A DNA stretch of 20,238 bases, from positions 1 through 20,238 of the IMG/VR virus record IMGVR_UViG_3300005043_000012; one strand, written 5' to 3'. This DNA comes from a virus. Below are positions 2,229 through 20,003 of the stretch, piece after piece. A program made the position numbers and the translations under genes. The notes beneath the pieces are model-generated. The model was given only the letters and a program-made list of their open reading frames with translations, was not told where the DNA came from and ran no database searches. Numbering within the stretch: the first letter of the stretch is position 1; each line of letters opens with the position of its first letter.

Positions 2229-4161
2229 ATTTAGCGTACAGATTGGAGGAGACACAGCCAAGTTAAAAAAAGCTGTTGAAGATGCTGCGAAGGCTTTGCA
2301 ACAATTCGGTAAAGAGGCGAGCGACTTAAACGGACAACTTAAAAAGAACGCTATTGCAACAGCTAACCTATCAAAACAAACGGAAGATTTAAACAGAGAC
2401 TTTAAGGCTGGCGTAATATCGGAAAATGCTTTCGGTAGAGGCTTGTTAGAGGTAGCTAGTGCGGAAAGAAAACTAGCGGCTGATAGTACCGCTTTATCTT
2501 CTAGGCTTAGTCAAGTAAACAAGGCGGCGAGCCAATTAGGTAATAAGGGTTTAAAAACAGTTGGTAAAAGTGCTGCAAACGCTGTGCCTTCAATGACCTC
2601 ATTTTCACAAGTTATACAAGATGCGCCTTTTGGGATTCAAGGGGTTGCGAATAATATAACACAATTAACCATGCAGTTTGGTAACTTATCCACTAAATTA
2701 GGGGGCTCGAAAGCTGCGTTAAAAAGTATGTTGGCGACCTTGACAGGCCCAGCTGGTATATTACTTGCCGTTTCCGTTGTTACTTCTTTAATGTTAGTTT
2801 TTAGCCGTTCTTTATTCAAGACTAAAGACAAAGCAAAGGCGCTAAAGGAAGAACAAGAGAAGTTAACAAAAGCATTAAAAGATTACGAGGATCAATTAGA
2901 CGCGGTAACAAAAACCCAGTTAATAGGGGGTAGAGCTTCTGCTTCTGAATTGACCAATTTAAAGCTGCTTAAGGTACAAACTCAAGATACTACAAGAGAC
3001 ATAGGGCATAGAAGAAAGGCGTTAGGAGAATTACAAAAGCTTTATCCTTCTTACTTTAAGAACTTAAGTACAGACATAAAAGATCAAAGACAACTAGGTT
3101 TTGCATTTGAGAGGTTAATATCTAGAATAGGAGACTTAAACAAGGCGAAGGCTGCGGCTGGACTGATTGCCAAGAACCAAAGAAAGCTAACCTTATTAGA
3201 AATACAAAGAGATCAAAAACTTGCTGAATTAGTAAAGCTTGGTATTGCTAAAGATAAAGCAAAGGCTAAATCTCTTATAATAAAAAGTAAAGCATCTGAG
3301 AAATACAACGCGAAACAAAAAGAGTTTCAAGAGGTATTAAACCAGATAAATCCTTTATTAAAGAAAAACGCTGAACTTATACAAATAGTTAGGGAGTCTG
3401 GCGGGGTTGTTCCTATAGACTTTGAAGTAAAAGAGTTTAGACCAGAGAACGTGAAAGCCTTTAAGGTTTCCGCTTCGGAGGACATTGTTGGTCTTGATGC
3501 TATAATTAAAAACTATTCTGATAGGATAGATTCTAGAGGGATTAAGCTATCAAAGCAGTTCACAGATTCAACAAAATTAAGTTTAGGGGGTATAAGCACC
3601 GAAAGCGTTGATATAGCTTTTGAGTTGCTAAAAATGAAGTTAGCCAGGTTAAGCGAAGAACTTAACGCAACAATAACTCAATCTATTGCGCCCACATTCA
3701 TGAATTTAGGTGATGCCATCGGTAGTGCCTTAGCAGAAGGGGCAAACGTTTTAGACGCTGTAGGTCAGTCTATTGTTGGTAGTTTAGGCGGTTTGTTATC
3801 GGCTATGGGTCAAAAGTTAATAGAGTTAGGTACTGCGGCTGTTTTGGCTGGTACTGTTGTTAAACTATTTGGAACTATAGCGGGTATTGGCGCTGGTATT
3901 GCTGCTATTGCGGGTGGTGTTATATTGTCTGCGGTTGGTTCGTCTCTTAGTTCAAGTCAACAAAGCGGAGGCTCTAAGACTACAGGGGTAGGCGGCGCGT
4001 CAACATCATCAAGAAGATCAGGCGGCGGTGGCGGTGGATTTGCTTCTGGCGGCGGTGGAACTGTTGTATTTGAAATAGCTGGTACTAAATTAGTAGGCGT
4101 ATTAAGTCGTACACTAGATAGGAATAAATCTTTAGGGGGTAGCTTAAGAATAACTACTTAA
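2221..4161 (+). CDS. Tail tape measure protein
   Basis: The 646-residue product is the longest in the window and follows the chaperones, as tape measure genes do. It is helical and Ala/Lys/Leu-rich at the N-terminus (residues 10-115). A segment at residues 127-149 (FSQVIQDAPFG, then NNITQL) matches a pattern I associate with Bacteroidota tape measures. A membrane-like segment spans about 177-195, then comes a charged coiled-coil region, and a second long hydrophobic stretch lies at about 535-573. The end has a Gly/Ser-rich linker and a closing FEIAGTKLVGVL motif, also common in Bacteroidota phages. At the usual ratio of about 1.5 angstrom per residue the tail would be near 100 nm. The stop overlaps the convergent lipoprotein stop at TTAA. 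Confidence 0.9.
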   Translation: MAEFSVQIGGDTAKLKKAVEDAAKALQQFGKEASDLNGQLKKNAIATANLSKQTEDLNRDFKAGVISENAFGRGLLEVASAERKLAADSTALSSRLSQVNKAASQLGNKGLKTVGKSAANAVPSMTSFSQVIQDAPFGIQGVANNITQLTMQFGNLSTKLGGSKAALKSMLATLTGPAGILLAVSVVTSLMLVFSRSLFKTKDKAKALKEEQEKLTKALKDYEDQLDAVTKTQLIGGRASASELTNLKLLKVQTQDTTRDIGHRRKALGELQKLYPSYFKNLSTDIKDQRQLGFAFERLISRIGDLNKAKAAAGLIAKNQRKLTLLEIQRDQKLAELVKLGIAKDKAKAKSLIIKSKASEKYNAKQKEFQEVLNQINPLLKKNAELIQIVRESGGVVPIDFEVKEFRPENVKAFKVSASEDIVGLDAIIKNYSDRIDSRGIKLSKQFTDSTKLSLGGISTESVDIAFELLKMKLARLSEELNATITQSIAPTFMNLGDAIGSALAEGANVLDAVGQSIVGSLGGLLSAMGQKLIELGTAAVLAGTVVKLFGTIAGIGAGIAAIAGGVILSAVGSSLSSSQQSGGSKTTGVGGASTSSRRSGGGGGGFASGGGGTVVFEIAGTKLVGVLSRTLDRNKSLGGSLRITT

Positions 4162-4409
4162 TTACAATTGTATATTTTGTATTTTATTAGTCTATTACCG
4201 TTATATGTTTTATCGAATATATCACCATTCAAAGAACAAAGTATTGATACATTTATTGTGTTAATTAAGATATGCGTACCTATTGAACTAACTTGATATA
4301 GTTTCTCTGTACAGTTACAGTCTAAATTTGTTTCTTCGGGTTCTGGAAAAACCGTATCTTTAGAACAGCTAATAAACATTATAATGGCAATAAATAGTAA
4401 TTTTTTCAT
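4158..4409 (-). CDS. Small lipoprotein, likely phage moron
   Basis: This is the only convincing gene on the minus strand. The 83-residue product begins with a short lipoprotein signal (MKKLLF, a hydrophobic core, then I-S-C with lipidated Cys15), followed by S-K-D as is typical of Flavobacteria. The mature part contains Cys31, Cys33, Cys58 and Cys82, which could form two disulfides, and would be anchored to the periplasmic side of a membrane. It is inserted between the tape measure and hub genes, which are usually adjacent, and has its own promoter-like site. This pattern fits a moron expressed from the prophage or early after infection; superinfection exclusion is one possible role but is inference. 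The family is not recognised. Confidence 0.75.
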   Translation of the reverse strand: MKKLLFIAIIMFISCSKDTVFPEPEETNLDCNCTEKLYQVSSIGTHILINTINVSILCSLNGDIFDKTYNGNRLIKYKIYNCN

Positions 4410-7880: not shown

Positions 7881-9127
7881 TGGCTAAAGTATTAGAATTA
7901 GGAAAGGGCGGGGACTTTCATATAAAAGAAGGAGGTTTACTAGCTCACCAAGAATTAACAAACGGCAGGTTTGTTCCGCAGCCTTTTGATGTTAACAGAG
8001 GTAGTTTAGCTACTTTTATAGGGTCTAATGGATTAGTGCAAACAGCAGCAAATAATGTACCTAGAATTGAAACAAAAGACAGCAATAAGCACCTTATAAC
8101 AGAGCCACAAAGCACAAATTTAGTTTTACAATCTCAGGAGTTGGAGACTGTATGGGGAAAGGAAAGTACAACGGCATTAGACAATGTGACGACCTCTCCT
8201 GACGGCGCAATAAACGCATCAAAACTAACTTGTGATATTAGCTCTGCTAATCACAGAATAAGAACAAATGTCCCTGTAGATATTGGATTGAATAATACTA
8301 TGTCGGTTTATCTTAAAAAGGGATCGGGGGCTAACTCTCCTGATAACATTCTTATATCGGGGGGTTCAGGGTTTGATTTTGCAATAAACGTAAATGTATC
8401 AAATGGCGTAATTAATGCCGTAAAAGGAGCTGTATCAGATGAGAAATCAGAAAGTTTAAAAGATGGTTGGTATAGATTCTCTTTTATGGCGGCGGCAACA
8501 TCAACCACGTCAGGTGGTCAATTTAGAATCGTTTTTGTAGATAACTCTACAAGTCAAGTATCTTCATCTTTTTCTTATAATGAGACAAATAGCGGTGTAG
8601 ATATTTTTATATGGCAAGCTCAATTCGAGCAAAACATACTAACATCTACTATAGTCACATCTGGCGTAATAGCGACAAGACTAAAAGACCAGGTAACAGG
8701 GGCGGGGTATTCGACAACATTTAACAGTTTAGAGGGGGTTTTAAATATTAAGGTAGCTGCATTAAGTTCTACAAATGAGGGAGCTAGATACATAACTTTA
8801 AGCGATGGAACGGTAAGCAATGTAATATCTTTATTCTTGACAGGTACGGACACGATCGGGGTTTTAATTTTTAACGGGTCTTTACTGTGGAGTACATCAA
8901 CGACCGTTCCAGATTTAACCGCGTTTACTGAAATATCATTAAAATATAAAGTCAATGATTTCGGGCTAAAGATTGATGGGGTTGAAGTTGCCACAAATAC
9001 AAGTGGCGCAACATTCGCGGCGGGTACTCTAACCACACTTAGTTTAAATAATGGGATTGCGGGTACTACGGAGTTTTATGGTAAAACTGAGTTTATAAAC
9101 ATTTTTGATTCAGCAACAGACTATTAA
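7880..9127 (+). CDS. Tail fibre / receptor-binding protein with lectin-like domain (copy 2)
   Basis: A 415-residue protein. It shows the same fibre motif as its upstream neighbour: N-N-V-P-R at 58-62, then L-I-T-E-P-Q-S-T-N-L at 72-81, which is close to the widespread phage motif L-L-L-E-P-x-S-T-N-L. A middle jelly-roll domain (about 85-260) includes W-Y-R-F-S-F and F-I-W-Q-A-Q-F-E-Q, as in carbohydrate-binding modules. A C-terminal LamG-like domain (about 275-410) includes L-K-I-D-G-V. It probably forms the distal host-recognition fibre. Compared with copy 1 it has an additional binding module, so the pair looks like an old duplication followed by domain gain or loss. Confidence 0.7.
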   Translation: MAKVLELGKGGDFHIKEGGLLAHQELTNGRFVPQPFDVNRGSLATFIGSNGLVQTAANNVPRIETKDSNKHLITEPQSTNLVLQSQELETVWGKESTTALDNVTTSPDGAINASKLTCDISSANHRIRTNVPVDIGLNNTMSVYLKKGSGANSPDNILISGGSGFDFAINVNVSNGVINAVKGAVSDEKSESLKDGWYRFSFMAAATSTTSGGQFRIVFVDNSTSQVSSSFSYNETNSGVDIFIWQAQFEQNILTSTIVTSGVIATRLKDQVTGAGYSTTFNSLEGVLNIKVAALSSTNEGARYITLSDGTVSNVISLFLTGTDTIGVLIFNGSLLWSTSTTVPDLTAFTEISLKYKVNDFGLKIDGVEVATNTSGATFAAGTLTTLSLNNGIAGTTEFYGKTEFINIFDSATDY

Positions 9128-11275: not shown

Positions 11276-11308
11276 TTAAAATATTTTCACTATATTAGCA
11301 CCAGCATA

Positions 11309-11374: not shown

Positions 11375-11413
11375 ACCCGACTAGGTTTTTAGTTTTACTA
11401 GGTCGGGTTTTTC
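11375..11413 (+). terminator. Strong intrinsic terminator 2 separating late and early regions
   Basis: ACCCGAC (11375-11381) pairs with GTCGGGT (11402-11408), extended by TAG/CTA past a bulged C, and is followed by a T-run. This is the most GC-rich hairpin in the intergenic region. It lies just before the early promoter/operator at 11431, so it insulates early transcription from late read-through. Confidence 0.8.
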
Positions 11414-11430
11414 TTTGCCTATAATTAGGA

Positions 11431-11450
11431 TATATAAATATATTTATGTA
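11431..11450 (+). promoter_or_regulatory. Early operator copy 1 (20-bp near-palindrome)
   Basis: TATATAAATATATTTATGTA. The central 14 bp (ATAAATATATTTAT) is a perfect palindrome; with its flanks, 18 of 20 positions are symmetric. The same 20 bases occur at 13423 and 19650. The TA at 11449-11450 begins TAAATTAG, a weak -7 element. The -33 TTG is not clear in this copy. It controls the unit that starts at 11496. Confidence 0.7.
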
Positions 11451-11495
11451 AATTAGCATATTCTTAGTACTGAAACTAAGATAAAAACTAATAAC

Positions 11496-11912
11496 ATGAT
11501 TGAAAAAACAAACGCAACAGATGAGAATATTGTAAAGTATTTCAACACACTTAATAAGTTGTATGAAGTATTACAATTGACTGACAGAATATCCATGAAT
11601 AAATTTAGTGAACAAAACAACGTTACGAAAAATTTAAGTACAGTCTTACAAAAAGGGGGTGTAATAAATTGCCTTGCAAAAGGTCGTGGTTCAAGATGGG
11701 AATGGACTTCTATAGCTCCAACTAGAGAAATGTCTGTAAAAGTATTAAAAGAATTATCTAAATTAAACCCAGAAAGACCAGGGGTTAGAGGTGGTAAAAG
11801 AGAGGGGGCTGGAAGAAAAAGTAAATCATTCGAAAACAGATACTTAGACAGCTATACTATTAAGTTATTTTTTGGCTTAATTAAAATTAATATTAAATTA
11901 AACTACAACTAA
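11496..11912 (+). CDS. First early protein: HTH-like domain plus basic tail, possible regulator
   Basis: A 138-residue protein. Residues about 15-80 form helices with a winged-helix-like pattern (K-F-S-E-Q-N-N-V-T-K-N-L-S-T-V-L, then G-G-V-I and a W-x-W). After this comes a basic, Gly-rich motif (GGKREGAGRK, about 100-109), frequent in phage DNA-binding proteins. The C-terminus has a short hydrophobic patch (I-K-L-F-F-G-L-I-K-I). It is the first gene after operator copy 1 and carries the AAAACTAA leader. A role in transcription control, possibly acting on the operators, is inferred from the domain pattern and position. Confidence 0.55.
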   Translation: MIEKTNATDENIVKYFNTLNKLYEVLQLTDRISMNKFSEQNNVTKNLSTVLQKGGVINCLAKGRGSRWEWTSIAPTREMSVKVLKELSKLNPERPGVRGGKREGAGRKSKSFENRYLDSYTIKLFFGLIKINIKLNYN

Positions 11913-11917
11913 ACATT

Positions 11918-12148
11918 ATGGCACAGGTAACAGTATTTCAAGTAGGGGAATTGAATGTAGAACAAACACAAGAACAAATTGTAAAATTAATAGAAGAGAG
12001 TGATTATTTTATTCCTCTAACCAAGGTTATATTCAATACATCTACAATATATTCTGGTGGCTCTAAATCTATAACAACTAAGGACGACGGGAGAAGAGAG
12101 AATATTTTAGTAGATAAGAAACATATAATACTAATAACTAATAATTAA
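11918..12148 (+). CDS. Small early protein, unknown
   Basis: A 76-residue protein with no membrane segment or known motif. It starts 6 bases after the previous stop, with an AACTAAACATT leader before the ATG that resembles the other early leaders. Its helix (E-Q-T-Q-E-Q-I-V-K-L-I-E) followed by beta strands suggests a compact alpha/beta fold. It is probably co-transcribed with the two genes around it. Confidence 0.6.
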   Translation: MAQVTVFQVGELNVEQTQEQIVKLIEESDYFIPLTKVIFNTSTIYSGGSKSITTKDDGRRENILVDKKHIILITNN

Positions 12149-12161
12149 TAAAACTAATAAC

Positions 12162-12707
12162 ATGAAGATTAAAAAACAACAATTAAAACACATTTACGAA
12201 GTATTAGACAAGGAGAATATATCCTACCTACAGGAGACAATGAGCGAGTGGTTTCCTAAACTATTTAAAGAAACTAAATCTCTTACAGGGTGGCATAAAT
12301 GGATAGGTAATAATAAAGCAATAGGGTTTATAAGTAAAGAGCCTACATCTGATTGCTATGTGTTTGATTATTTGACTAACGATGACACAAATGATTATGA
12401 TAGTTTACATAAATCTTATTTAATACCAGCCACAGACAAAGAAGTAGAAGACGCTTTAATAAAAGAAGCTAAGAAGAGAGGGTTTAAGAGAGGGGTTGCT
12501 TTTACTAACTCACCTTTTTTAGATTGTCTTAAATCAGAAGTATATACTTTATGTAACGAAGTAAGTAATCGAGGTTACAAATATGATTATGGAAAATTAT
12601 ATTTTGATGAATGGACTTTATTTAGTAACGGAAAATGGGCTACAATAATAGAAACCATCACAAAAGAACAAGCAGAAAAGGAACTAGGTAAAACCATAGT
12701 AGACTAA
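12162..12707 (+). CDS. Early protein of unknown function
   Basis: A 181-residue soluble protein. Features include W-F-P-K-L-F, W-H-K-W-I-G-N-N-K-A-I-G-F, a conserved-looking P-A-T-D-K-E-V-E-D-A-L-I-K-E-A-K-K-R-G-F block (about 89-109), and a C-terminal strand with W-T-L-F-S-N-G-K-W-A. I recall similar proteins in flavobacterial phages and prophages but no function. The start has AAAACTAATAAC before ATG, identical to the leader at 11496. It ends in TAATG, shared with a 48-residue ORF. Confidence 0.6.
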   Translation: MKIKKQQLKHIYEVLDKENISYLQETMSEWFPKLFKETKSLTGWHKWIGNNKAIGFISKEPTSDCYVFDYLTNDDTNDYDSLHKSYLIPATDKEVEDALIKEAKKRGFKRGVAFTNSPFLDCLKSEVYTLCNEVSNRGYKYDYGKLYFDEWTLFSNGKWATIIETITKEQAEKELGKTIVD

Positions 12708-12853
12708 TGAAAGATAGAATACAAAAACTAAATCAAGAGAGAGACAAGGTTTACGCAAGGATGTTAAATACAAAGGGAACTAATGTATATAAGTATCACA
12801 AAGATATGTTTAATAGATTATCATCTAGAATAATTCAATTAAAACTACAATAA
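12707..12853 (+). CDS. 48-residue basic helical protein
   Basis: ATG at 12707 overlaps the previous TAA (TAATG) and the ORF ends with TAA at 12851-12853. The product is highly charged, rich in Lys, Arg, Gln and Asn (MKDRIQKLNQ start, RIIQLKLQ end), and looks like a single or double helix. The coupled start and the close fit between neighbours support it as a real gene. Function is unknown. Confidence 0.55.
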   Translation: MKDRIQKLNQERDKVYARMLNTKGTNVYKYHKDMFNRLSSRIIQLKLQ

Positions 12854-12854
12854 A

Positions 12855-13028
12855 ATGGAATTAAGAACAATAATAACAGATACGGACGAAAAGATTATTT
12901 TAGAGTATGAAGGTTTTTTATATTCTCCTACTGATTTTATAATTTACAACGGACATCAATACTGTAATAATATTTACTCTGACGTAATAGAATATCAAAA
13001 GATAACAAGACATATTGTTATACAATAA
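12855..13028 (+). CDS. 57-residue small early protein
   Basis: ATG at 12855, one base after the previous stop, to TAA at 13026-13028. It reads as beta strands with many Ile and Tyr residues (F-L-Y-S-P-T-D-F-I-I-Y-N-G) and one Cys. The spacing and the leader AACTAAACACA for the next gene suggest a continuous gene string. No family is recognised. Confidence 0.5.
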   Translation: MELRTIITDTDEKIILEYEGFLYSPTDFIIYNGHQYCNNIYSDVIEYQKITRHIVIQ

Positions 13029-13037
13029 CTAAACACA

Positions 13038-13208
13038 ATGAACACAGAACACACATTACTAAAAGGGGCAAACAATTCAGGCGGCATAACTTACATTAAA
13101 TATTGTTTAGACGTACAAGATATATTGCCAATTAGAATTAACTTTCTATTAGAGTTCACAAACATATACAGCATTAACTATTACGGAATAATCACAAACA
13201 AAAACTAA
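13038..13208 (+). CDS. 56-residue small early protein
   Basis: ATG at 13038 to TAA at 13206-13208. Its leader AACTAAACACA is a variant of the early octamer. It is a beta-rich peptide with G-G-I-T-Y-I-K-Y-C-L and a hydrophobic end. The stop codon lies inside the AAAACTAA leader of the next gene, so the two ORFs share regulatory sequence. Function is unknown. Confidence 0.5.
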   Translation: MNTEHTLLKGANNSGGITYIKYCLDVQDILPIRINFLLEFTNIYSINYYGIITNKN

Positions 13209-13210
13209 AG

Positions 13211-13402
13211 ATGGAAAACATAAACTACCACGGGATGCAGATAACCGCAAAGGAAAGAGAAATAACGCTAAGTTGTTGGTTCTACCAATACCCTCCAGAA
13301 CACGTTAAAAGTATTATATATTACATGCGAGAGAATAGTGTTGACTGGATAACTAGGGATCAACTATCGGACTTTTACGAAGGCGCTGAATTTAATAATT
13401 AA
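13211..13402 (+). CDS. 63-residue early protein
   Basis: The start has AAAACTAA two bases upstream. The protein is mostly helical with three Trp residues, one Cys and an acidic end (D-F-Y-E-G-A-E-F). It includes A-K-E-R-E-I-T-L-S-C-W-F-Y-Q and I-T-R-D-Q-L. It is the last gene before operator copy 2. No function is recognised. Confidence 0.55.
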   Translation: MENINYHGMQITAKEREITLSCWFYQYPPEHVKSIIYYMRENSVDWITRDQLSDFYEGAEFNN

Positions 13403-13419
13403 AATAAACAAGATAAACC

Positions 13420-13450
13420 TTGTATATAAATATATTTATGTATATATTGC
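13420..13450 (+). promoter_or_regulatory. Early promoter with operator copy 2 in the spacer
   Basis: TTG (13420-13422) and TATATTGC (13443-13450) fit the Bacteroidota promoter pattern (TTG, about 20 nt, TAnnTTTG with one T missing). The 20-nt spacer, 13423-13442, is exactly the near-palindrome TATATAAATATATTTATGTA. A protein bound there would cover the whole spacer and block RNA polymerase. It drives the gene at 13471 and, probably, the string up to the recombination genes. Confidence 0.75.
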
Positions 13451-13470
13451 AGCATCTTAAAACTAGAACA

Positions 13471-13611
13471 ATGGAAAAAACACTAAAACTAATCAATAAA
13501 TTATTAGACTTAACAGGTACATGTGCAAACACTAAAGTACATAATGACCTAATAGAAATTAAAAGCACTCTATCAGAAGAGTTATCAGAAATAATTAAAC
13601 AAATAAGATAA
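13471..13611 (+). CDS. 46-residue helical early protein
   Basis: The correct start is the ATG at 13471; a frame-open TTG at 13420 lies inside the promoter/operator and is not used. The protein is a Lys/Glu/Leu-rich amphipathic helix (M-E-K-T-L-K-L-I-N-K-L-L) with a second helix (E-E-L-S-E-I-I-K-Q-I-R). Its leader is AAAACTAGAACA, a variant of the early octamer. It is first in its transcription unit, which often marks an immediate early regulator, but no DNA-binding motif is seen. Confidence 0.6.
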   Translation: MEKTLKLINKLLDLTGTCANTKVHNDLIEIKSTLSEELSEIIKQIR

Positions 13612-13739
13612 TGTTTAACCACGACCCTAGAAACCCATCAAACTACACAGGTACAGTATCCTGTTGTTTATGTGATGCAGAATACCAAGACGATGAAACC
13701 CACTATTGCAAAGAAAACGACAATGAAACAGGAGTATAA
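13611..13739 (+). CDS. 42-residue Cys-rich, zinc-finger-like protein
   Basis: ATG at 13611 shares a base with the previous TAA (TAATG). The protein has Cys18, Cys19, Cys21, His31 and Cys33 (S-C-C-L-C ... H-Y-C), which could bind one zinc ion, and an acidic C-terminus. It overlaps the next short ORF by 17 nt. It may be a small DNA- or protein-binding factor. Confidence 0.5.
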   Translation: MFNHDPRNPSNYTGTVSCCLCDAEYQDDETHYCKENDNETGV

Positions 13740-13836
13740 GAACTTTATGCCCACACCGACAGTCATTTACATTAAGCACGCAAAGAAGAACGGAACAACA
13801 CAAGTATTAATTAGAACACAGGAAGAGCATGAGTAA
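13723..13836 (+). CDS. 37-residue possible small protein
   Basis: ATG at 13723 to TAA at 13834-13836. It overlaps the Cys-rich ORF (17 nt) and the start of the regulator gene (8 nt). It would encode a basic peptide with a short strand (P-T-V-I-Y-I-K-H-A) ending in E-E-H-E. Without it there would be a gap of about 90 nt between genes that are otherwise tightly packed, which supports it. The evidence is only size and packing. Confidence 0.35.
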   Translation: MKQEYKNFMPTPTVIYIKHAKKNGTTQVLIRTQEEHE

Positions 13837-14074
13837 GAACCACGAATTAGACCTAACAAACGCTATAGAGCGATACAATGAAGAAGGTAATGACAAATAC
13901 GAGATGTCTATAGATAGAATACATAAGACACTATTAAAAAAAGGTATTAAAATAACATACGGAACTTTACTAAACTACAACGGTACAGGATCACAACAAG
14001 CACCAAGAGCATTTGAAGTACTAAACATTATTTGCGACATACTAAAAGTAACGCCTAACGAACTATTAAAATAA
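13829..14074 (+). CDS. Cro/C1-family-like HTH regulator
   Basis: An 81-residue protein. Residues about 27-80 fit an XRE/Cro-C1 helix-turn-helix: I-D-R-I-H-K-T-L-L-K-K-G-I-K-I-T-Y-G-T-L-L-N-Y then A-F-E-V-L-N-I-I-C-D-I-L-K-V-T-P-N-E-L-L. The final L-x-V-x-P-x-E-L-L is typical of this family. It is too small for an autocleaving repressor. It is a prime candidate to bind the three early operators, one of which lies about 400 bp upstream of it. It would act in the cytoplasm as a dimer on palindromic DNA; that link is inference. Confidence 0.65.
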   Translation: MSKNHELDLTNAIERYNEEGNDKYEMSIDRIHKTLLKKGIKITYGTLLNYNGTGSQQAPRAFEVLNIICDILKVTPNELLK

Positions 14075-14095
14075 AACTATTTAAAACTAAACGAA

Positions 14096-14701
14096 ATGAA
14101 TAAAACACTGCGAGAAATACAAAAGGAACTAAAGAAGGAGATGCCTTTTAAGTGGCGTGTTCAATCTTTCAGTAAACAAAAAGCACAAGCAACCTGTGTT
14201 GCATACATTGACAGTAGAGGCGTTCAGGACGTTTTAGATGCAAATTGTGAATGGTCGGATAGATACTACGAAGAAAACGGAATGTTATTTTGTGAGATTA
14301 CAATTTATGCAGACGGTAGAGAATACAAAAGAAGCGATACAGGAAGCGAAAGCAATGTAGATAAACAAAAAGGTCATAGCTCAGACGCTTTTAAAAGAGC
14401 AGCGGTTAAATTCGGTGTAGGTAGGTTCTTATACTCTTTAGATATAAAGTATTTAACAGCTAGCGAAAAGAAAACAACAAGTAATTATCCTTTTGTAGTA
14501 GACAATAACGGTGCAAGAGTTTGGGATTTAGCCAAGCACATTAACGGAGCACCAAAGCCAAGCAAAGTTATGAAGCCCAGCGAGAAACTAAAAGCGTGTA
14601 AAACATTAAAAGAATTACAAACTGTTTACACGGGGTTAGCAAGAACAGAACAGACTGCAATGGCTGGATTAAAAGACGAACTTAAGTTAACACTAAAATG
14701 A
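14096..14701 (+). CDS. Rad52/Sak-type single-strand annealing protein
   Basis: A 201-residue protein with the clear signature of the Rad52/22 (Sak) family: V-A-Y-I-D-S-R at 35-41 followed by Q-D-V-L-D, then dG-x-E-x3-R-S-D-T-G at 74-83 and K-G-H-S-S-D-A-F-K-R-A-A-V-K-F-G-V-G-R-F at 92-111. The C-terminal part (about 155-200) is a separate helical domain with K-x-C-K-T-L-K-E-L. Such proteins form rings on single-stranded DNA and anneal complementary strands during phage recombination-dependent replication. It has the AAAACTAA leader and overlaps the next gene by ATGA. The expected length is usual for the family. Confidence 0.85.
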   Translation: MNKTLREIQKELKKEMPFKWRVQSFSKQKAQATCVAYIDSRGVQDVLDANCEWSDRYYEENGMLFCEITIYADGREYKRSDTGSESNVDKQKGHSSDAFKRAAVKFGVGRFLYSLDIKYLTASEKKTTSNYPFVVDNNGARVWDLAKHINGAPKPSKVMKPSEKLKACKTLKELQTVYTGLARTEQTAMAGLKDELKLTLK

Positions 14702-14928
14702 TTAAACCTGACGACGAGCAAACTTTTAACATAACGTTCAAGACAACAAACGAAGGTTACAGTTATATCCTTAATTGGTTAAAGCATCACACAGAATTAA
14801 TATCTGATAGGGTGCTACCTGATACGGACGATCTTTACGAGTCTAACGAATCATTTAGGGCTATACTTAAAAAGATTAAGAAGGATAAAGACATTAGAGA
14901 TAGTATAATTAACAAACAAAACAAATAA
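14698..14928 (+). CDS. Small protein coupled to the annealase
   Basis: A 76-residue protein with an acidic N-terminus (K-P-D-D-E-Q), an F-N-I-T-F-K-T strand, a helix, then a Lys-rich helix (A-I-L-K-K-I-K-K-D-K-D-I-R-D). It overlaps the annealing protein gene by ATGA, so expression is linked and a recombination accessory role is possible. No homologous family is recognised. Confidence 0.6.
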   Translation: MIKPDDEQTFNITFKTTNEGYSYILNWLKHHTELISDRVLPDTDDLYESNESFRAILKKIKKDKDIRDSIINKQNK

Positions 14929-14932
14929 CATC

Positions 14933-15025
14933 ATGAACAAAAGAAAAGCAAAAAAACTATTTCACTATGTATTAGGAGTAGGATTATCATTATCATTCGC
15001 AATAGAACTAATTAAAAATCTGTAG
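14933..15025 (+). CDS. 30-residue single-helix membrane peptide
   Basis: ATG at 14933 to TAG at 15023-15025. A basic N-terminus (MNKRKAKK) precedes one hydrophobic helix (V-L-G-V-G-L-S-L-S-F-A-I). It ends in I-K-N-L. This looks like a small inner-membrane peptide with its N-terminus in the cytoplasm; small phage peptides of this type can modify host proteins or the membrane. The evidence is hydrophobicity and the tidy fit between neighbours. Confidence 0.45.
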   Translation: MNKRKAKKLFHYVLGVGLSLSFAIELIKNL

Positions 15026-15027
15026 TC

Positions 15028-15162
15028 ATGAGTTTATACGCCTATTGTAAAAAAGCAAGTGATGGAGAACAAAATTCCCATTGCAATAATAAATGCATGG
15101 CTTGCGTAATTCACATTACGAAAAAAAAAGCAACTATGGATGAACGATTTAATAAACAGTAG
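15028..15162 (+). CDS. 44-residue Cys-rich peptide
   Basis: ATG at 15028, two bases after the previous stop, to TAG at 15160-15162. It contains Cys7, His18, Cys19, Cys23 and Cys26 (H-C-N-N-K-C-M-A-C) and could bind zinc or a metal cluster. A run of nine A bases inside the ORF (15121-15129) encodes a Lys-rich stretch and could be a slippage point. The family is unknown. Confidence 0.45.
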   Translation: MSLYAYCKKASDGEQNSHCNNKCMACVIHITKKKATMDERFNKQ

Positions 15163-15188
15163 CTTAAAAGATACAAAAACTAAACACA

Positions 15189-15752
15189 ATGAAAAACATA
15201 ATAGCAAATAGAGTAATAGAATTAACAGGTGTTGATGTATTTAAAAAGACAAATCAAAAAGAGTATACACAGGCAAGGAGCTTATTATTTTCTTCATTAA
15301 AAGAAGTGTGTAAAATGACCGACAAACATATTTGTGATTTTAGCAAGCAAAACGGTCTAAAAATAAATAGGTCATCAATTACCCTGTGCCGAAATAAATT
15401 TAATTTATATTGCAAAAGTAATATAGAATTAAAAGACTATTACAATTCTATTGTTTTTGAAGATTATAAGGTAAGTAAAACGGAATTACTTAAAAGATTA
15501 TCGGAATCTAAAAGAACCTTAAAGAAAGTAAGAAGAAGAAACGACTATTTAGAATCAAAGATTTTAGAGTGTACAAACGAAACAGTATTTACAAACGAAA
15601 CATTGATCGAATTAGTTAAAAATGTGCCCGAAGAAAAAACAAAACTTGTTTACGATAGATTAAATCTATTTATTAAAAGTTGGGGATGGAAAGATAAAGC
15701 ACTACCAAACGCTTGCAAAACTTATGAGTGCGGATCAATAAGAGCTTTTTAA
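15189..15752 (+). CDS. Putative DNA-binding protein with DnaA-like helical N-terminal domain
   Basis: A 187-residue basic protein. Residues 1-75 are helical (R-V-I-E-L-T-G-V-D-V-F, then R-S-L-L-F-S-S-L-K-E-V-C-K-M-T-D-K-H-I and I-N-R-S-S-I), a pattern like the DNA-binding domain IV of DnaA. Residues about 95-135 form a basic coiled coil (K-R-T-L-K-K-V-R-R-R-N-D-Y). The C-terminus has W-G-W-K-D-K-A. It carries the AAAACTAA leader and ends in TAATG before the NinB-like gene. A role in replication initiation or origin binding is possible but the DnaA similarity is weak by eye. Confidence 0.5.
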   Translation: MKNIIANRVIELTGVDVFKKTNQKEYTQARSLLFSSLKEVCKMTDKHICDFSKQNGLKINRSSITLCRNKFNLYCKSNIELKDYYNSIVFEDYKVSKTELLKRLSESKRTLKKVRRRNDYLESKILECTNETVFTNETLIELVKNVPEEKTKLVYDRLNLFIKSWGWKDKALPNACKTYECGSIRAF

Positions 15753-16168
15753 TGCGCTACGATCTAAAAAACGATAAAGAAAGGTGTAATGCTGAAACTA
15801 AATTTAAACACGCTTTAAAGGAGGGTAAAGCAATCGAGTTAAAAGAGGTTAGAAAAACCCGTAGTATAACTCAAAACAGCGCATTACACCTTTACTTTAC
15901 GTTTATAGCTTATGAATTGAACAACTTAGGGTTAGAATTTCGTTACGAGGGCTTAATTACTAAAGGATTAACAAGTAGGTACACGGACAACATAGTAAAA
16001 GAGTTTATTTGGAAGCCTATACAAAACGCTTTATTTGATATTAAAAGCACTACCAAGTTAGACACTAAAGAGATTAACGAAATCATTGACGTAATTACAA
16101 AGTACTTCGGAGATAAAGGAATAACGGTTGACTTTCCAAGTATAGAATCATTAACAAATAAAAACTAA
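15752..16168 (+). CDS. NinB-like recombination protein
   Basis: The best start is the ATG at 15752, which shares a base with the preceding TAA; an upstream in-frame GTG at 15728 would overlap the previous gene by 25 nt and is less likely. The 138-residue product has I-E-L-K-E-V-R-K-T-R-S-I-T-Q-N-S-A-L-H at 28-46, the hallmark of NinB (PF05772), followed by a helical middle and a final motif with D-K-G-I-T-V-D-F-P. NinB/Orf proteins bind single-stranded DNA and help exchange annealing or recombinase proteins. It fits with the Sak gene upstream. Confidence 0.75.
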   Translation: MRYDLKNDKERCNAETKFKHALKEGKAIELKEVRKTRSITQNSALHLYFTFIAYELNNLGLEFRYEGLITKGLTSRYTDNIVKEFIWKPIQNALFDIKSTTKLDTKEINEIIDVITKYFGDKGITVDFPSIESLTNKN

Positions 16169-16171
16169 ATT

Positions 16172-17008
16172 ATGAATGTATTAAGTTTATTTGACGGTAT
16201 GAGCTGCGGACAAATAGCATTAGAACGGGCAGGTATTAAAGTAGATAAGTACTTTGCCGCTGAAATAAAAAAACACGCTATAGAAGTTACACAACATAAT
16301 TATCCAAACACTATACAGTTAGGAGATGTTACAAAAGTAAAAAGCAAAGACTTGCCTAAAATTGATTTATTAATTGGTGGTAGTCCGTGCCAGGACTTTA
16401 GTCGGGCTAATAAAGAAAGAAAAGGGGTTGAAGGTAGTAAAAGTAGTTTGTTTTTTGAATACGTAAGATTATTAAAAGAATGTAAGCCTAAATACTTTTT
16501 ACTTGAAAATGTAATAATGAGTGATTATAATTATTGGTTTATATGTAACGAAATGGATTGTGAACCCGTTAGACTTTGTGGGAGTTTAGTTAGTGGCGCT
16601 TTAAGGGATAGGTTATATTGGACAAATATACCCCCTTTTAGTCACGATATAACAGGGAGGTTGATAAGTCAAATTACGCAACCTAAAGACACATTAACAA
16701 CATTACAAAGTGTTTTAGATAGTGGTATTTCAAAAAAAAGGAAACATACCTGTTTAAATACATCTTCTGGAGTAGGTGGTAAACAAGAGTATTTAAGACA
16801 CCGTAATAATACGACTGGTATGATTACGTTAATATATGAAAATGACGGAACAGTAAGGACTGTAAACCATAACGAACTAGAAAAATTGCATAATATTCCA
16901 GAGGGTTACACATCTATTTTAAACCAAAGAAAAGCAGGTGACTTAATAGGTGACGGTTGGACTGTAGATATTGCTACTCACATATTTAAGAACATCAACA
17001 ACAATTAA
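16172..17008 (+). CDS. Orphan C5-cytosine DNA methyltransferase
   Basis: A 278-residue protein with the ordered motifs of C5-MTases: motif I L-S-L-F-D-G-M-S-C-G (4-13), motif IV G-G-S-P-C-Q-D-F-S with catalytic Cys73, motif VI L-L-E-N-V (E112), motif VIII R-D-R-L-Y-W (145-150), a target-recognition region at about 155-225, and motifs IX-X ending in G-D-G-W-T-V-D. The layout around motifs VI-VIII resembles phage and Dnmt3-like enzymes. It transfers methyl from S-adenosylmethionine to cytosine. No restriction nuclease gene is adjacent, so it probably protects phage DNA or marks it for expression or packaging. It carries AAAACTAAATT before ATG. Confidence 0.9.
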   Translation: MNVLSLFDGMSCGQIALERAGIKVDKYFAAEIKKHAIEVTQHNYPNTIQLGDVTKVKSKDLPKIDLLIGGSPCQDFSRANKERKGVEGSKSSLFFEYVRLLKECKPKYFLLENVIMSDYNYWFICNEMDCEPVRLCGSLVSGALRDRLYWTNIPPFSHDITGRLISQITQPKDTLTTLQSVLDSGISKKRKHTCLNTSSGVGGKQEYLRHRNNTTGMITLIYENDGTVRTVNHNELEKLHNIPEGYTSILNQRKAGDLIGDGWTVDIATHIFKNINNN

Positions 17009-17028
17009 CAATGTTTTAAAACTAAATT

Positions 17029-17301
17029 ATGAAAACACCAACAACACAATTACAACAAGTATTATCCCACTTAATAAAAGAAGGTAGGGTATCAATTAAA
17101 CAATTCTTTTACCTCCCTGCTTTTCGCACTAGAGTATCAGATTTAAATTTAAAACATGGTTTAATATTAGATAGCTCAGAACGAGAGAAGGGAAAGAACA
17201 TACACGGTAACACGTACAGCTTCCCAATTCACAAGCTGCCAACCGATCAGAAAAAGAGAGCTATTGAATTATATCAAGAATTAACTTGCTCAAGTAAATA
17301 A
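17029..17301 (+). CDS. Winged-helix DNA-binding protein
   Basis: A 90-residue protein. Residues 5-65 fit a winged helix: T-Q-L-Q-Q-V-L-S-H-L, a turn, F-R-T-R-V-S-D-L-N-L-K-H-G (recognition helix, about 32-44), then a wing with Lys/Asn and N-T-Y-S-F. The pattern R-x-S-D-L-x4-G is common in phage replication and regulatory HTH proteins. It shares the leader AAAACTAAATT with the methyltransferase gene. It is followed by the structured region at 17286. It is a second candidate regulator for the early operators or the leader RNA promoter. Confidence 0.6.
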   Translation: MKTPTTQLQQVLSHLIKEGRVSIKQFFYLPAFRTRVSDLNLKHGLILDSSEREKGKNIHGNTYSFPIHKLPTDQKKRAIELYQELTCSSK

Positions 17302-17315
17302 TTATCGTATATTTG
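17286..17315 (+). promoter_or_regulatory. Bacteroidota-type promoter (TTG-N19-TATATTTG)
   Basis: TTG at 17286-17288 and TATATTTG at 17308-17315 are separated by 19 nt, matching the TTG/TAnnTTTG consensus. This is the best promoter in the window. The TTG lies within the end of the preceding gene. Initiation would be about 17320, at the start of the structured leader. Confidence 0.75.
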
Positions 17316-17319
17316 CGAT

Positions 17320-17415
17320 GTAGTTGCCTTTCGACATTATAGCAACTTAACAATATTAACATAAGCCTTATAATGAATGTAGAAGTCGGAAGCTACAGGA
17401 TTTATAAGGTTTTTT
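17320..17415 (+). ncRNA. Candidate small RNA or attenuating leader
   Basis: Directly downstream of the promoter, AGTTGC (17322-17327) pairs with GCAACT (17342-17347). An AU-rich linker follows, then CCTTATAA (17366-17373) pairs with TTATAAGG (17402-17409), with an inner hairpin TGTAG/CTACA (17378-17382, 17393-17397), and a run of six Ts. The result is a compact RNA of about 95 nt with its own promoter and an intrinsic terminator before the next ATG at 17428. It could be a stand-alone small RNA, or a leader that controls read-through into the replication genes. No known RNA family is recognised. Confidence 0.45.
17366..17415 (+). terminator. Intrinsic terminator upstream of the replication cassette
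   Basis: An 8-bp perfect stem (CCTTATAA/TTATAAGG), extendable by a G-T and two A-T pairs, encloses a 28-nt loop with its own 5-bp hairpin, and is followed by TTTTTT (17410-17415). It lies 12 nt before the next ATG, so it must be bypassed or be partial for the downstream genes to be transcribed from the 17308 promoter. Confidence 0.6.
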
Positions 17416-17427
17416 GTATTAAATATT

Positions 17428-17601
17428 ATGGGAACAATAGTAAGATTTTTAATTGAAATTGCAGCAATACTTTTAATATATTATGCTTTTAATGATAATA
17501 TAGATCATAAAATACACTCTAAAGCATGGTGGAAACAGTTAGGTTTAATAGCGTTGGCTATAACTATTATAAAGATTAACTACGGTAATTCTTTAACGTA
17601 A
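17428..17601 (+). CDS. 57-residue two-helix membrane protein
   Basis: ATG at 17428 to TAA at 17599-17601. Two hydrophobic segments (about 3-20 and 36-50) flank a polar loop with D-N-I-D-H-K-I-H and W-W-K, so it is probably a hairpin membrane protein. Its TAA overlaps the next ATG (TAATG), which supports translation and coupling to the replication gene. It is the first gene after the candidate leader RNA. The family is unknown. Confidence 0.55.
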   Translation: MGTIVRFLIEIAAILLIYYAFNDNIDHKIHSKAWWKQLGLIALAITIIKINYGNSLT

Positions 17602-18197
17602 TGGCTAAAGATAAAAAATCATTTCTAATATATTGTGATATAATAAAATCAATAGACCATTTCACAAATGAAGAAAAGGGTATATTATTCCAGCATTTAC
17701 TTGAATACGTAAACGATATGAATCCTGTTTTAACTGATAGGCTAATTCTAACAGCCTGGAAACCAATAGAGAACCAACTAAAGAGAGACTTGCAAAAGTA
17801 CGAATCTGTACGTAAACGCAACAGCGAAAACGCTCTAAAAAGGTGGGGTAAAAAAGATACCAAAGAATGCGACCGCATAGAGTCGGATACCAAAAGTACC
17901 AGAAATGCCGATAATGATACAGATAATGATACAGATAAAGATATATCTATTAAAATAGATAACAGTAATTATAAAAAAATAGTTTTATCTGATTCTCAGT
18001 TTATGGAGATAACAGCAATGCAAACAAAAACCAACTTTGATACTGTTATAAAATACCTTGACGAATACGAAAATCATTTAATCAGAACAAGTGAGCAAAA
18101 GAAAAACATAAAAGACTTTAAATCGCATTTCACTAATTGGATTAATAGACAAGATATTAAAAAAGTAATTAAGCACGTAAAACAAAGATATGTATAA
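17601..18197 (+). CDS. DUF6291-like replication protein
   Basis: A 198-residue protein. The N-terminal 75 residues (K-D-K-K-S-F-L-I-Y-C-D-I, then E-E-K-G-I-L-F-Q-H-L-L-E-Y-V-N-D, A-W-K-P-I-E-N-Q-L-K-R-D-L) match DUF6291, common in Bacteroidota phage replication modules. A low-complexity linker (about 100-118) contains Asp/Asn/Thr repeats from three 12-bp units. The C-terminal half includes F-D-T-V-I-K-Y-L-D-E-Y and F-K-S-H-F-T-N-W, like a DnaT/DnaD-type helicase-loading tail. With the helicase two genes downstream it probably recruits or loads the helicase at the origin; that role is inferred. Confidence 0.65.
   Translation: MAKDKKSFLIYCDIIKSIDHFTNEEKGILFQHLLEYVNDMNPVLTDRLILTAWKPIENQLKRDLQKYESVRKRNSENALKRWGKKDTKECDRIESDTKSTRNADNDTDNDTDKDISIKIDNSNYKKIVLSDSQFMEITAMQTKTNFDTVIKYLDEYENHLIRTSEQKKNIKDFKSHFTNWINRQDIKKVIKHVKQRYV
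17910..17945 (+). repeat. Three 12-bp tandem repeats encoding an acidic linker
   Basis: GATAATGATACA occurs twice exactly (17910-17921, 17922-17933), followed by a diverged third unit (17934-17945). They encode Asp/Asn/Thr residues that link the two halves of the replication protein. The in-frame 12-bp unit means copy number can change linker length without frameshift. Confidence 0.7.
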
Positions 18198-18633
18198 CCT
18201 AGATAAAGCACTAAACAGACTCGCATGGCGATTTACTAACAAAAAAGGGTTTACTCCTGGTGAAGAAGATTTAAACGCCTTAAACACGCTTATTTCGTGG
18301 ATTAACCGCCAAGAGTCAGAAGCTATAAAAAACAATCAGTTATTTGCAAAGTTGTACATTTACAATCTTAACCAATCAATTAGGTATTTTGAAGCGAGTG
18401 TGTTTGATGACATACCACAAAAAGAGGTTAGCCGATTATTAGACTTACCATTAAAAAACTATTACAGCGCATTTCATAAAGAGCTACAAAGCAACAATAT
18501 TACTAGAGTAGTTGAAAATAAGAATATTCCTAAAGAAGATATATTAAAAGAGTTAGAAGAAAAATACACTTTAGAAGAGTGTACAAAGCAACTCGATAAA
18601 ATGATTAACGAGGCATTAAATAGATTCAGTTAA
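18190..18633 (+). CDS. Unknown protein of the replication cassette
   Basis: A 147-residue, mostly helical, charged protein. It overlaps the previous gene by 8 nt and is followed one base later by the helicase gene, so it is part of the same operon. The middle (about 60-110) has repeated aromatic residues (Y-I-Y-N-L-N-Q-S-I-R-Y-F) and the C-terminus is Lys/Glu-rich (K-E-L-E-E-K-Y-T-L-E-E-C). It may be a helicase partner or loader, judged only by its position. Confidence 0.55.
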   Translation: MYNLDKALNRLAWRFTNKKGFTPGEEDLNALNTLISWINRQESEAIKNNQLFAKLYIYNLNQSIRYFEASVFDDIPQKEVSRLLDLPLKNYYSAFHKELQSNNITRVVENKNIPKEDILKELEEKYTLEECTKQLDKMINEALNRFS

Positions 18634-18634
18634 C

Positions 18635-19642
18635 ATGAGTAGACCATTAATAAAACTAGACAACGAATACAAAGTAAATGATTTTGATTATAAAAACCAT
18701 ATAGTAAATTCAAATACTATTAACTCAGAGTTAGACGACTTCATTACGGGTAAAATACCACAGGGTTTTAAATGTGGGTTTGAAGTGTTAGACGATCACT
18801 TTCAATGTAAAAAGAATGAGTTTTATATCTTGACAGGTAAAAAGGGGCGTGGTAAGACAACGATAAACCAAGCTCTACAAATTATGTACAGCCTTGCAAA
18901 CGGTTTGATTTGGGTTGTAGCGTTCCAGGAGAATAGCCATTGGTCTATGAAACTTAACTACATGAATTATTTACTAGGCGAATATGCAACAGATGTAAAA
19001 AGAAACAATATAACAAAGTATAATTTAGCTAGTGACTGGATAGATAAACACTTTATATTCATTCAAGTAGAAGACATAAGAACGGCTACAGAAGTAGCAA
19101 AGGGAATAATTGAAAACGGTACAGATGTACACGCCTTACTACTTGATCCTATCAACTCATTTAAAAACGGTTGGCAAGATACGGGCAACGGTTATGCCGA
19201 TGGTGTAGTTGCTGGTTTAGAATTACTTAATTTTAGTAAAGAATTTTGTTCTGTACATATCTCACAACACCCAAACATGGCGGGGCAAAGACAAGAGGGG
19301 GCGGTTACAAGCTACCAAGCAGAAGGGGGTTGGTATTTAAACAAAGCTAGTTTTACTTATGTATTACACCGTGAAAAAGGGAGTTCAGAGAATCAATTAA
19401 TTGTTGAGAATGTAAGAAACAAACATACTGGGGGTTCTGAAACAGAAGCGGACAATCCCGTTATAATAGACTGGAGTCCAATAGGTATAGACCTAAGAAA
19501 AGTATTTGGATTCGAAACAGAAAAGGACGTTATACAGCAGCTAGTAAGAAAGTACAATCCTTTAAGCGTAAAAGAATCAAAGCCAATACCCACCGCCTCA
19601 CTAGACCAAGCATTTGGAGACAACAAAAAAATAGTATTTTAA
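18635..19642 (+). CDS. DnaB-like / RecA-fold replicative helicase
   Basis: A 335-residue protein with a RecA-type ATPase core: Walker A G-K-K-G-R-G-K-T at 68-75, a strand with W-V-V-A-F-Q-E-N (the H1a region, E99), Walker B A-L-L-L-D-P at 167-172, a Q/H motif with V-H-I-S-Q-H-P-N at 207-214, and a candidate arginine region N-V-R-N-K-H-T-G-G at 259-267. The length fits a C-terminal DnaB domain without the N-terminal primase-binding domain, as in some phage SF4 helicases. It probably forms a hexamer that unwinds phage DNA at replication forks. No primase is seen in the window. Confidence 0.8.
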   Translation: MSRPLIKLDNEYKVNDFDYKNHIVNSNTINSELDDFITGKIPQGFKCGFEVLDDHFQCKKNEFYILTGKKGRGKTTINQALQIMYSLANGLIWVVAFQENSHWSMKLNYMNYLLGEYATDVKRNNITKYNLASDWIDKHFIFIQVEDIRTATEVAKGIIENGTDVHALLLDPINSFKNGWQDTGNGYADGVVAGLELLNFSKEFCSVHISQHPNMAGQRQEGAVTSYQAEGGWYLNKASFTYVLHREKGSSENQLIVENVRNKHTGGSETEADNPVIIDWSPIGIDLRKVFGFETEKDVIQQLVRKYNPLSVKESKPIPTASLDQAFGDNKKIVF

Positions 19643-19644
19643 TG

Positions 19645-19675
19645 TTGTGTATATAAATATATTTATGTAGATTGC
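19645..19675 (+). promoter_or_regulatory. Early promoter with operator copy 3 in the spacer
   Basis: TTG (19645-19647) and TAGATTGC (19668-19675) are separated by 20 nt. The operator TATATAAATATATTTATGTA (19650-19669) fills almost the whole spacer and its last TA is the start of the -7 element. It begins 8 nt after the helicase stop and directs the genes at 19698 and beyond. Confidence 0.75.
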
Positions 19676-19697: not shown

Positions 19698-20003
19698 ATG
19701 ATAATTACAAAAGAACATCAGGAGGCAATGGTAAATAATTACAGAAACAAAGGACATAACGAATCTGAATGTATGGGCTTTGTTGACGGTATGAATGCAA
19801 TGTTTGAATTAGTAAGCAATAAAGACGCTATTAAAATTGACAAGAGATATTATAGACAATCGTTTTTAGATTGGATGGAAAAGTACTTTGTTTACGACCC
19901 AATAACTTACGGTTATAAATCTAAGCACAACAAGACAAGGCATACTTTGGGTATGTTGAGAAAAGATTATAAAAAGGCAATGCTTGAATCAGCTTTTAAT
20001 TAA
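19698..20003 (+). CDS. Early protein of unknown function
   Basis: A 101-residue protein that is first in the third early unit, with the leader AAAACTAAGATT before ATG. The same leader and the first codons ATGATA recur at 20035. It has an acidic and Met-rich N-terminal half (E-C-M-G-F-V-D-G-M-N-A-M-F-E-L) and a basic C-terminal half (Y-K-S-K-H-N-K-T-R-H, R-K-D-Y-K-K-A). No family is recognised. Confidence 0.6.
   Translation: MIITKEHQEAMVNNYRNKGHNESECMGFVDGMNAMFELVSNKDAIKIDKRYYRQSFLDWMEKYFVYDPITYGYKSKHNKTRHTLGMLRKDYKKAMLESAFN

Follow-up and report, generated by a model that had tools for sequence, protein, structure and literature searches.

Introduction

The operators bound by CI and Cro in lambda, 434, P22 and TP901-1 are short palindromic sites in early promoters, and a Cro/C1-type protein is encoded in the region that they regulate. 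Phage-specific promoters can also be repeated as identical units, as in class III of T7, where identical elements of 20-odd bp recur ahead of operons. Operators and stoperators of the mycobacteriophage L5 type are numerous, near-identical and scattered, and they lie mostly in one orientation relative to transcription (PMC6550527). Stoperators have an asymmetric site, to which a monomer binds, and they influence elongation as well (PMC9283540). Little work exists on the control of early genes in phages that infect Flavobacteriia. The sigma-A -7 box of Flavobacterium psychrophilum reads TAnnTTTG, and a separate motif of this species, SM5, reads TAnnTTGY (PMC9723704).

We analyzed a stretch of viral DNA of 20,238 nucleotides (IMG/VR record IMGVR_UViG_3300005043_000012; hereafter the window), which probably belongs to a bacterial virus infecting Flavobacteriia. 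The window has three exact copies of the 20-mer TATATAAATATATTTATGTA on its plus strand (sites A to C), and five (A to E) are present in its relative G001 (IMGVR_UViG_3300023222_000045, 35,618 bp), which we take to be complete because it has a 144-bp terminal direct repeat. Cro and CI operators are palindromes of about 14 to 20 bp that overlap early promoter elements. The 20-mer is such a palindrome, and it overlaps early promoter elements, as assigned by consensus, in 3/3 copies of the window and 5/5 copies of G001; a Cro/C1-type protein is encoded in one of the units concerned. Whereas the sites of lambda, 434, P22 and TP901-1 are clustered and graded, those described here are single, identical and scattered over the genome, and no divergent CI gene, integrase or lysogeny region was recognized among the G001 proteins scanned, which are part of the total. 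The 20-mer shares a scattered distribution and one orientation with the L5-type sites. Unlike stoperators, it is palindromic and confined to promoters, with five sites in all; symmetry at 9/10 dyad positions, together with the placement of every copy near a promoter and none elsewhere in the transcribed region, rules out that these are stoperators. In contrast to T7 class III promoters, the 20-mer is flanked by host-type -33 and -7 elements, and no phage RNA polymerase was recognized. The -7 boxes behind it fit the sigma-A and SM5 motifs of flavobacteria, and the 20-mer is part of neither (PMC9723704).

An operator shared among early promoters is a familiar kind of control that is hardly described in this virus group. 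The 20-mer and its clade appear to be undescribed in the literature that we searched; in line with the original prediction, which knew of no description of this operator, our searches returned no described operator for phages of Flavobacteriia. Five identical palindromes embedded in promoters, with a Cro/C1-like candidate binder nearby, make a small and tractable system.

Results

A palindromic 20-mer occurs three times between genes of the window

The original prediction placed exact copies of the 20-mer upstream of genes at 11431, 13423 and 19650, and we confirmed all three:

11431..11450, plus strand: site A (copy 1), after the lysis-module terminator and before gene 11496; same place in G001 and in the partial relative L015
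13423..13442, plus strand: site B (copy 2), exactly between TTG and TATATTGC
19650..19669, plus strand: site C (copy 3), final TA shared with the -7 box; same place in G001 and in the partial relative L016

Each copy is intergenic, and the next start codon follows at 45, 28 and 28 nt (copies 1, 2 and 3, respectively). Non-coding DNA makes up 5.3% of the window, so that placement of all three between genes has a chance probability of about 1.5e-4. No further site was found in the window at up to three mismatches. AT-richness had been considered an unlikely source of three exact 20-mers, and the statistics agree: at this tolerance, matches to the 20-mer on both strands numbered 6, compared with a mean of 0.08 and at most 2 in shuffles, and no word of 14 or more nucleotides was present three times in any of 200 third-order Markov simulations of the window.

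The 14-bp core, ATAAATATATTTAT, is a perfect palindrome, as had been noted, and pairing extends to 9/10 dyad positions of the full 20-mer, which is made up of the half-site TAYATAAATA, inverted with zero gap. Among the AT-rich 20-mers of the window, 3 of 462 pair at 9/10 positions, and all three are the copies described here. Among 750 AT-rich 20-mers tested in G001, six pair at 9/10, five of them copies of the same element. We rejected a role as an RNA hairpin, which would have only -1.9 kcal/mol, with the site upstream of the predicted transcription start.

The 20-mer lies in promoters and is separate from the core promoter

Promoters were assigned by consensus, and the following elements were read from the sequence:

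11375..11416, plus strand: terminator-like hairpin and T run just 5' of site A; kept in G001
11449..11456, plus strand: weak -7 box of site A, TAAATTAG; kept in G001 and L015
13420..13450, plus strand: site B promoter, with TTG at 13420-13422, N20, and TATATTGC at 13443-13450
17286..17315, plus strand: early-side promoter-like site without the 20-mer before the replication genes, with TTG at 17286 and TATATTTG at 17308-17315; also in G001
19645..19675, plus strand: site C promoter, with TTG at 19645-19647, N20, and TAGATTGC at 19668-19675

Copies 2 and 3 had been proposed to fill the 20-nt spacer between TTG and TAnnTTGC. This is exactly the case for copy 2. The spacer of site C likewise measures 20 nt. 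Here, however, the 20-mer is shifted 2 nt to the right, and its final TA doubles as the initial TA of the -7 box. A full TTG and a -7 box 20 nt apart are present at sites B, C and D, whereas sites A and E are without the -33 TTG. The -7 boxes behind the same 20-mer are of several types, with TAnnTTTG at D and E, TAnnTTGC at B and C, and TAAATTAG at A. When the five sites of G001 were compared with each other, they had little in common beyond the 20-mer and the nATT of the -7 box. At site B, the window reads TTG-20mer-TATATTGC and G001 reads TTGTG-20mer-GATTGC, such that the 20-mer has moved by 2 nt while TTG-N20-TAnnTTGC is kept. Because of the several -7 types and the 2-nt slide at site B, we conclude that the 20-mer is an element separate from the core promoter. 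The promoter-like site before the replication genes and the G001 late promoter ahead of the terminase are both without it.

Two other short sequences recur nearby. The leader TAAAACTAAnATTATGA is repeated before start codons of the window (11484, 12150, 19685, 20022 and others), which agrees with the A-rich start contexts of Flavobacteriia that have no Shine-Dalgarno sequences. Between the lysis genes and site A, ATATTTTCACTATATTAGC is present once in the window (about 11281-11300) and twice in G001 (L004:2163 and 2314), and it resembles a promoter end with a TATATTAGC box.

The sites recur at the same places in one viral clade

Sites A, B, C and D of G001 lie along the early strand. Site E, on the opposite (minus) strand, lies ahead of an early-type gene and in the interval that separates a MuF-like head gene from the prohead protease, and the presence of the 20-mer with such a gene in the structural region fits trans-acting control. 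All five G001 copies are intergenic and close to promoters, and the random occurrence inside genes that would have spoken against the prediction was not found in related genomes. Among partial relatives, L015 has sites A and B, L016 has C and D, and L013 and L014 have E. Overlaps at 100% identity join two of these contigs to the start of the window, L013 over 2,103 bases and L014 over 99. Because these two contigs carry site E, the window phage, or a near-identical one, probably has this site beyond the contig edge and hence at least four sites, judging from the overlaps. The original idea of an early regulon with three sites thus stands in its essentials, with a promoter-embedded palindrome common to early units and at the same places in relatives, but the number of sites was too low, given D and E.

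The relatives are 77-93% identical over aligned segments, yet the five copies stay exact, in a comparison that rests on one near-complete relative, G001. The flanks of orthologous sites are also conserved between genomes, so this comparison by itself does not single out the 20-mer.

A scan of 2.9 million viral contigs found the 20-mer in ten stretches, which represent this one clade plus three unrelated single matches (L010, L012 and L018). We regard these three as probable chance matches; each is a single copy, and only L010 has a TAnnTTTG box. In L010 (2818-2837, minus strand), an unrelated phage, the 20-mer lies directly before CATTTG (a TACATTTG box), downstream of a terminase gene, which may reflect chance or independent use. 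Perfect-palindrome variants of the site in IMG/VR were single and scattered, with no -7 box behind them. By structural proteins, the nearest cultured phages are Flavobacterium phage 11b and Cellulophaga phage phi10:1 (37-40% identity). Neither of these, nor Polaribacter phage P12002L, Olleya phage Harreka_1 or Flavobacterium phage tooticki, has the 20-mer or a comparable promoter repeat. A DNA search of the phage collection gave nothing beyond 41-bp matches to two Cellulophaga phages, and wider relatives found through tail protein 4456 were too short or too distant to reach site A.

First genes are exchanged behind constant promoters

The following genes lie behind the sites:

11496..11912, plus strand: first gene behind site A, 138 aa; absent from G001 and replaced in L015
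13471..13611, plus strand: first gene behind site B, 46 aa; the first gene in G001 is 35% identical and of the same family
13829..14074, plus strand: 81-aa protein of the Cro/C1 helix-turn-helix (HTH) type; leading candidate binder, within the site B unit
19698..20003, plus strand: first gene behind site C, 101 aa; in G001 and L016, unrelated genes take its place

At sites A, C and E, the promoter and leader are kept up to the start codon while the first genes are swapped. Behind site A, the window encodes the 138-aa protein, whereas a pentapeptide-repeat protein takes this place in G001 and yet another protein does so in L015; site C has three unrelated versions and site E two arrangements. 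In the more distantly related G002, an early gene is similar to the G001 gene behind site E (38% identity, 1e-9). One possible, tentative reading is that the module of promoter, operator and leader serves as a standard socket for exchangeable early genes, and that the site E cassette has moved, operator included, to the opposite strand within the structural genes. If so, any gene placed behind the module would join the regulon at once. Gene swapping behind constant promoter-operator modules offers a tangible model for the acquisition of accessory early genes that stay under one control.

A Cro/C1-like protein is the best candidate binder

The proteins at 11496, 13829 and 17029 had been named as possible binders, and they fared differently. 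The 11496 protein is ruled out as the needed binder, with no homolog in G001, which has five copies, and a replacement in L015; it had no Pfam or PHROG match. The 17029 protein is 43-44% identical in G001, but its predicted fold is unreliable (pLDDT 43), and a related protein is present in G002, a phage without this operator. The 13829 protein is the best candidate, from its sequence and modeled fold. It matched Pfam HTH_26 with an E-value of 2.4e-4 and 21.7 bits, just below the curated cut-off of 22. Its model, of middling confidence (pLDDT 69), has five helices (residues 9-18, 28-37, 44-49, 61-72 and 76-80), and the top structural matches are all XRE-type (Z 5-6.8; rmsd 2.5, 63 residues), including TP901-1 CI, lambda CI and P22 c2. 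The G001 counterpart, 44-47% identical, is also in the site B unit. IMG/VR protein scans with the 13829 or 11496 protein alone found no relatives, and a two-row alignment of the 13829 protein found G001 only; the phage collection gave no match. G002 likewise encodes an HTH_26 protein, here behind a different promoter repeat that is present twice. The case for the 13829 protein is circumstantial, and the sub-threshold profile match and the middling model confidence count against it. So does the comparison of the window and G001 proteins, which are only 44-47% identical: when aligned by inference with 434 repressor, they differ at several presumed contact positions of the recognition helix, although the operators are identical.

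The 20-mer as a candidate operator for joint early repression

From the sites, their identity and palindromy, their placement in promoters, their recurrence in relatives and their restriction to one clade, we infer protein binding, repression, the 13829 protein as binder and the timing of control. We assign a probability of about one half to the reading that the 20-mer is the operator of a phage-encoded dimeric repressor, most likely the 13829 protein, that shuts the early units together. The candidate dimer would bind the 20-mer in the spacer of sigma-A-like or SM5-like promoters and bar RNA polymerase from the promoters of early accessory gene units, which would all be closed together, probably after the first minutes of infection. 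The 13829 protein, made from the site B unit, would limit its own synthesis through site B. No integrase or divergent repressor was recognized in the scanned part of the G001 proteins, which favors a switch that times lytic growth over one that governs lysogeny. The copies are identical and all point one way, which counts against a repressor because a homodimer needs no fixed orientation.

This fixed orientation, with a near-fixed register to the -7 box, is what would be expected if a phage activator, or a modifier of RNA polymerase, bound the 20-mer and turned the promoters on, by MerR-like spacer distortion or as a middle-promoter box. Sites A and E, without TTG, may need such help. Sites B, C and D, however, have TTG and a -7 box at 20 nt and no obvious need of it, and the 2-nt slide at site B is hard to accommodate for an activator that touches polymerase. 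No MerR-like or sigma-like gene was recognized among the proteins scanned with Pfam, which are part of the total, and we consider activation rather unlikely. We hold it quite unlikely that duplication has simply spread a strong early promoter sequence and that no protein is dedicated to binding the 20-mer. Every copy is in a promoter, AT-rich spacers could aid melting, and identical copies could be recent; but the palindromy goes beyond AT content, the 20-mer is common to differing -7 boxes and slid at site B, five exact copies are kept in relatives that are 77-93% identical, and the cultured flavobacterial phages examined have no such promoter repeats.

Two further explanations are less probable than these. 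The 20-mer could be the site of a regulator of the host, either exploited by the phage or acting to silence it. Against this, among 84,980 bacterial and archaeal genomes the exact 20-mer followed by NATT gave one match, in Streptococcus, which we took as chance; this search was for exact matches and would miss degenerate host sites. We regard a host regulator as improbable. The repeated promoter pieces could instead serve mainly as seams for homologous cassette exchange, helped by the Erf-like annealing protein encoded at 14096. The unrelated first genes behind A (three versions), C (three) and E (two), with promoter and leader kept, would suit exchange at seams, but a stretch of 20 bp is short for recombination, genes are commonly replaced at other borders as well, and both the palindromy and the fit to promoters are left unexplained. 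Exchange may be a consequence rather than the function of the repeats, and as their main role we find it very improbable.

Other repeats and a gene within the tail region

In G002 (L022/L023; oriented positions 8895 and 15522), another promoter repeat, TTAATTATTTGTATATATAAA, of 21-32 nt is common to two early promoters. It is possibly a second operator type, with the HTH_26 protein near the first copy; elsewhere, the repeat pair gave single matches only, in three unrelated contigs. Intergenic regions of G003 and G004 (for example, G004 oriented positions 25226, 27195 and 28461) have many TTACnTAnAACGTATnnGTGTAAG-like pieces, which form a dispersed repeat family. In the window, a small lipoprotein-like gene (4158-4409, minus strand) lies inside the tail genes on the opposite strand; it is 92% identical in G001 and may be a moron or encode a surface exclusion protein.
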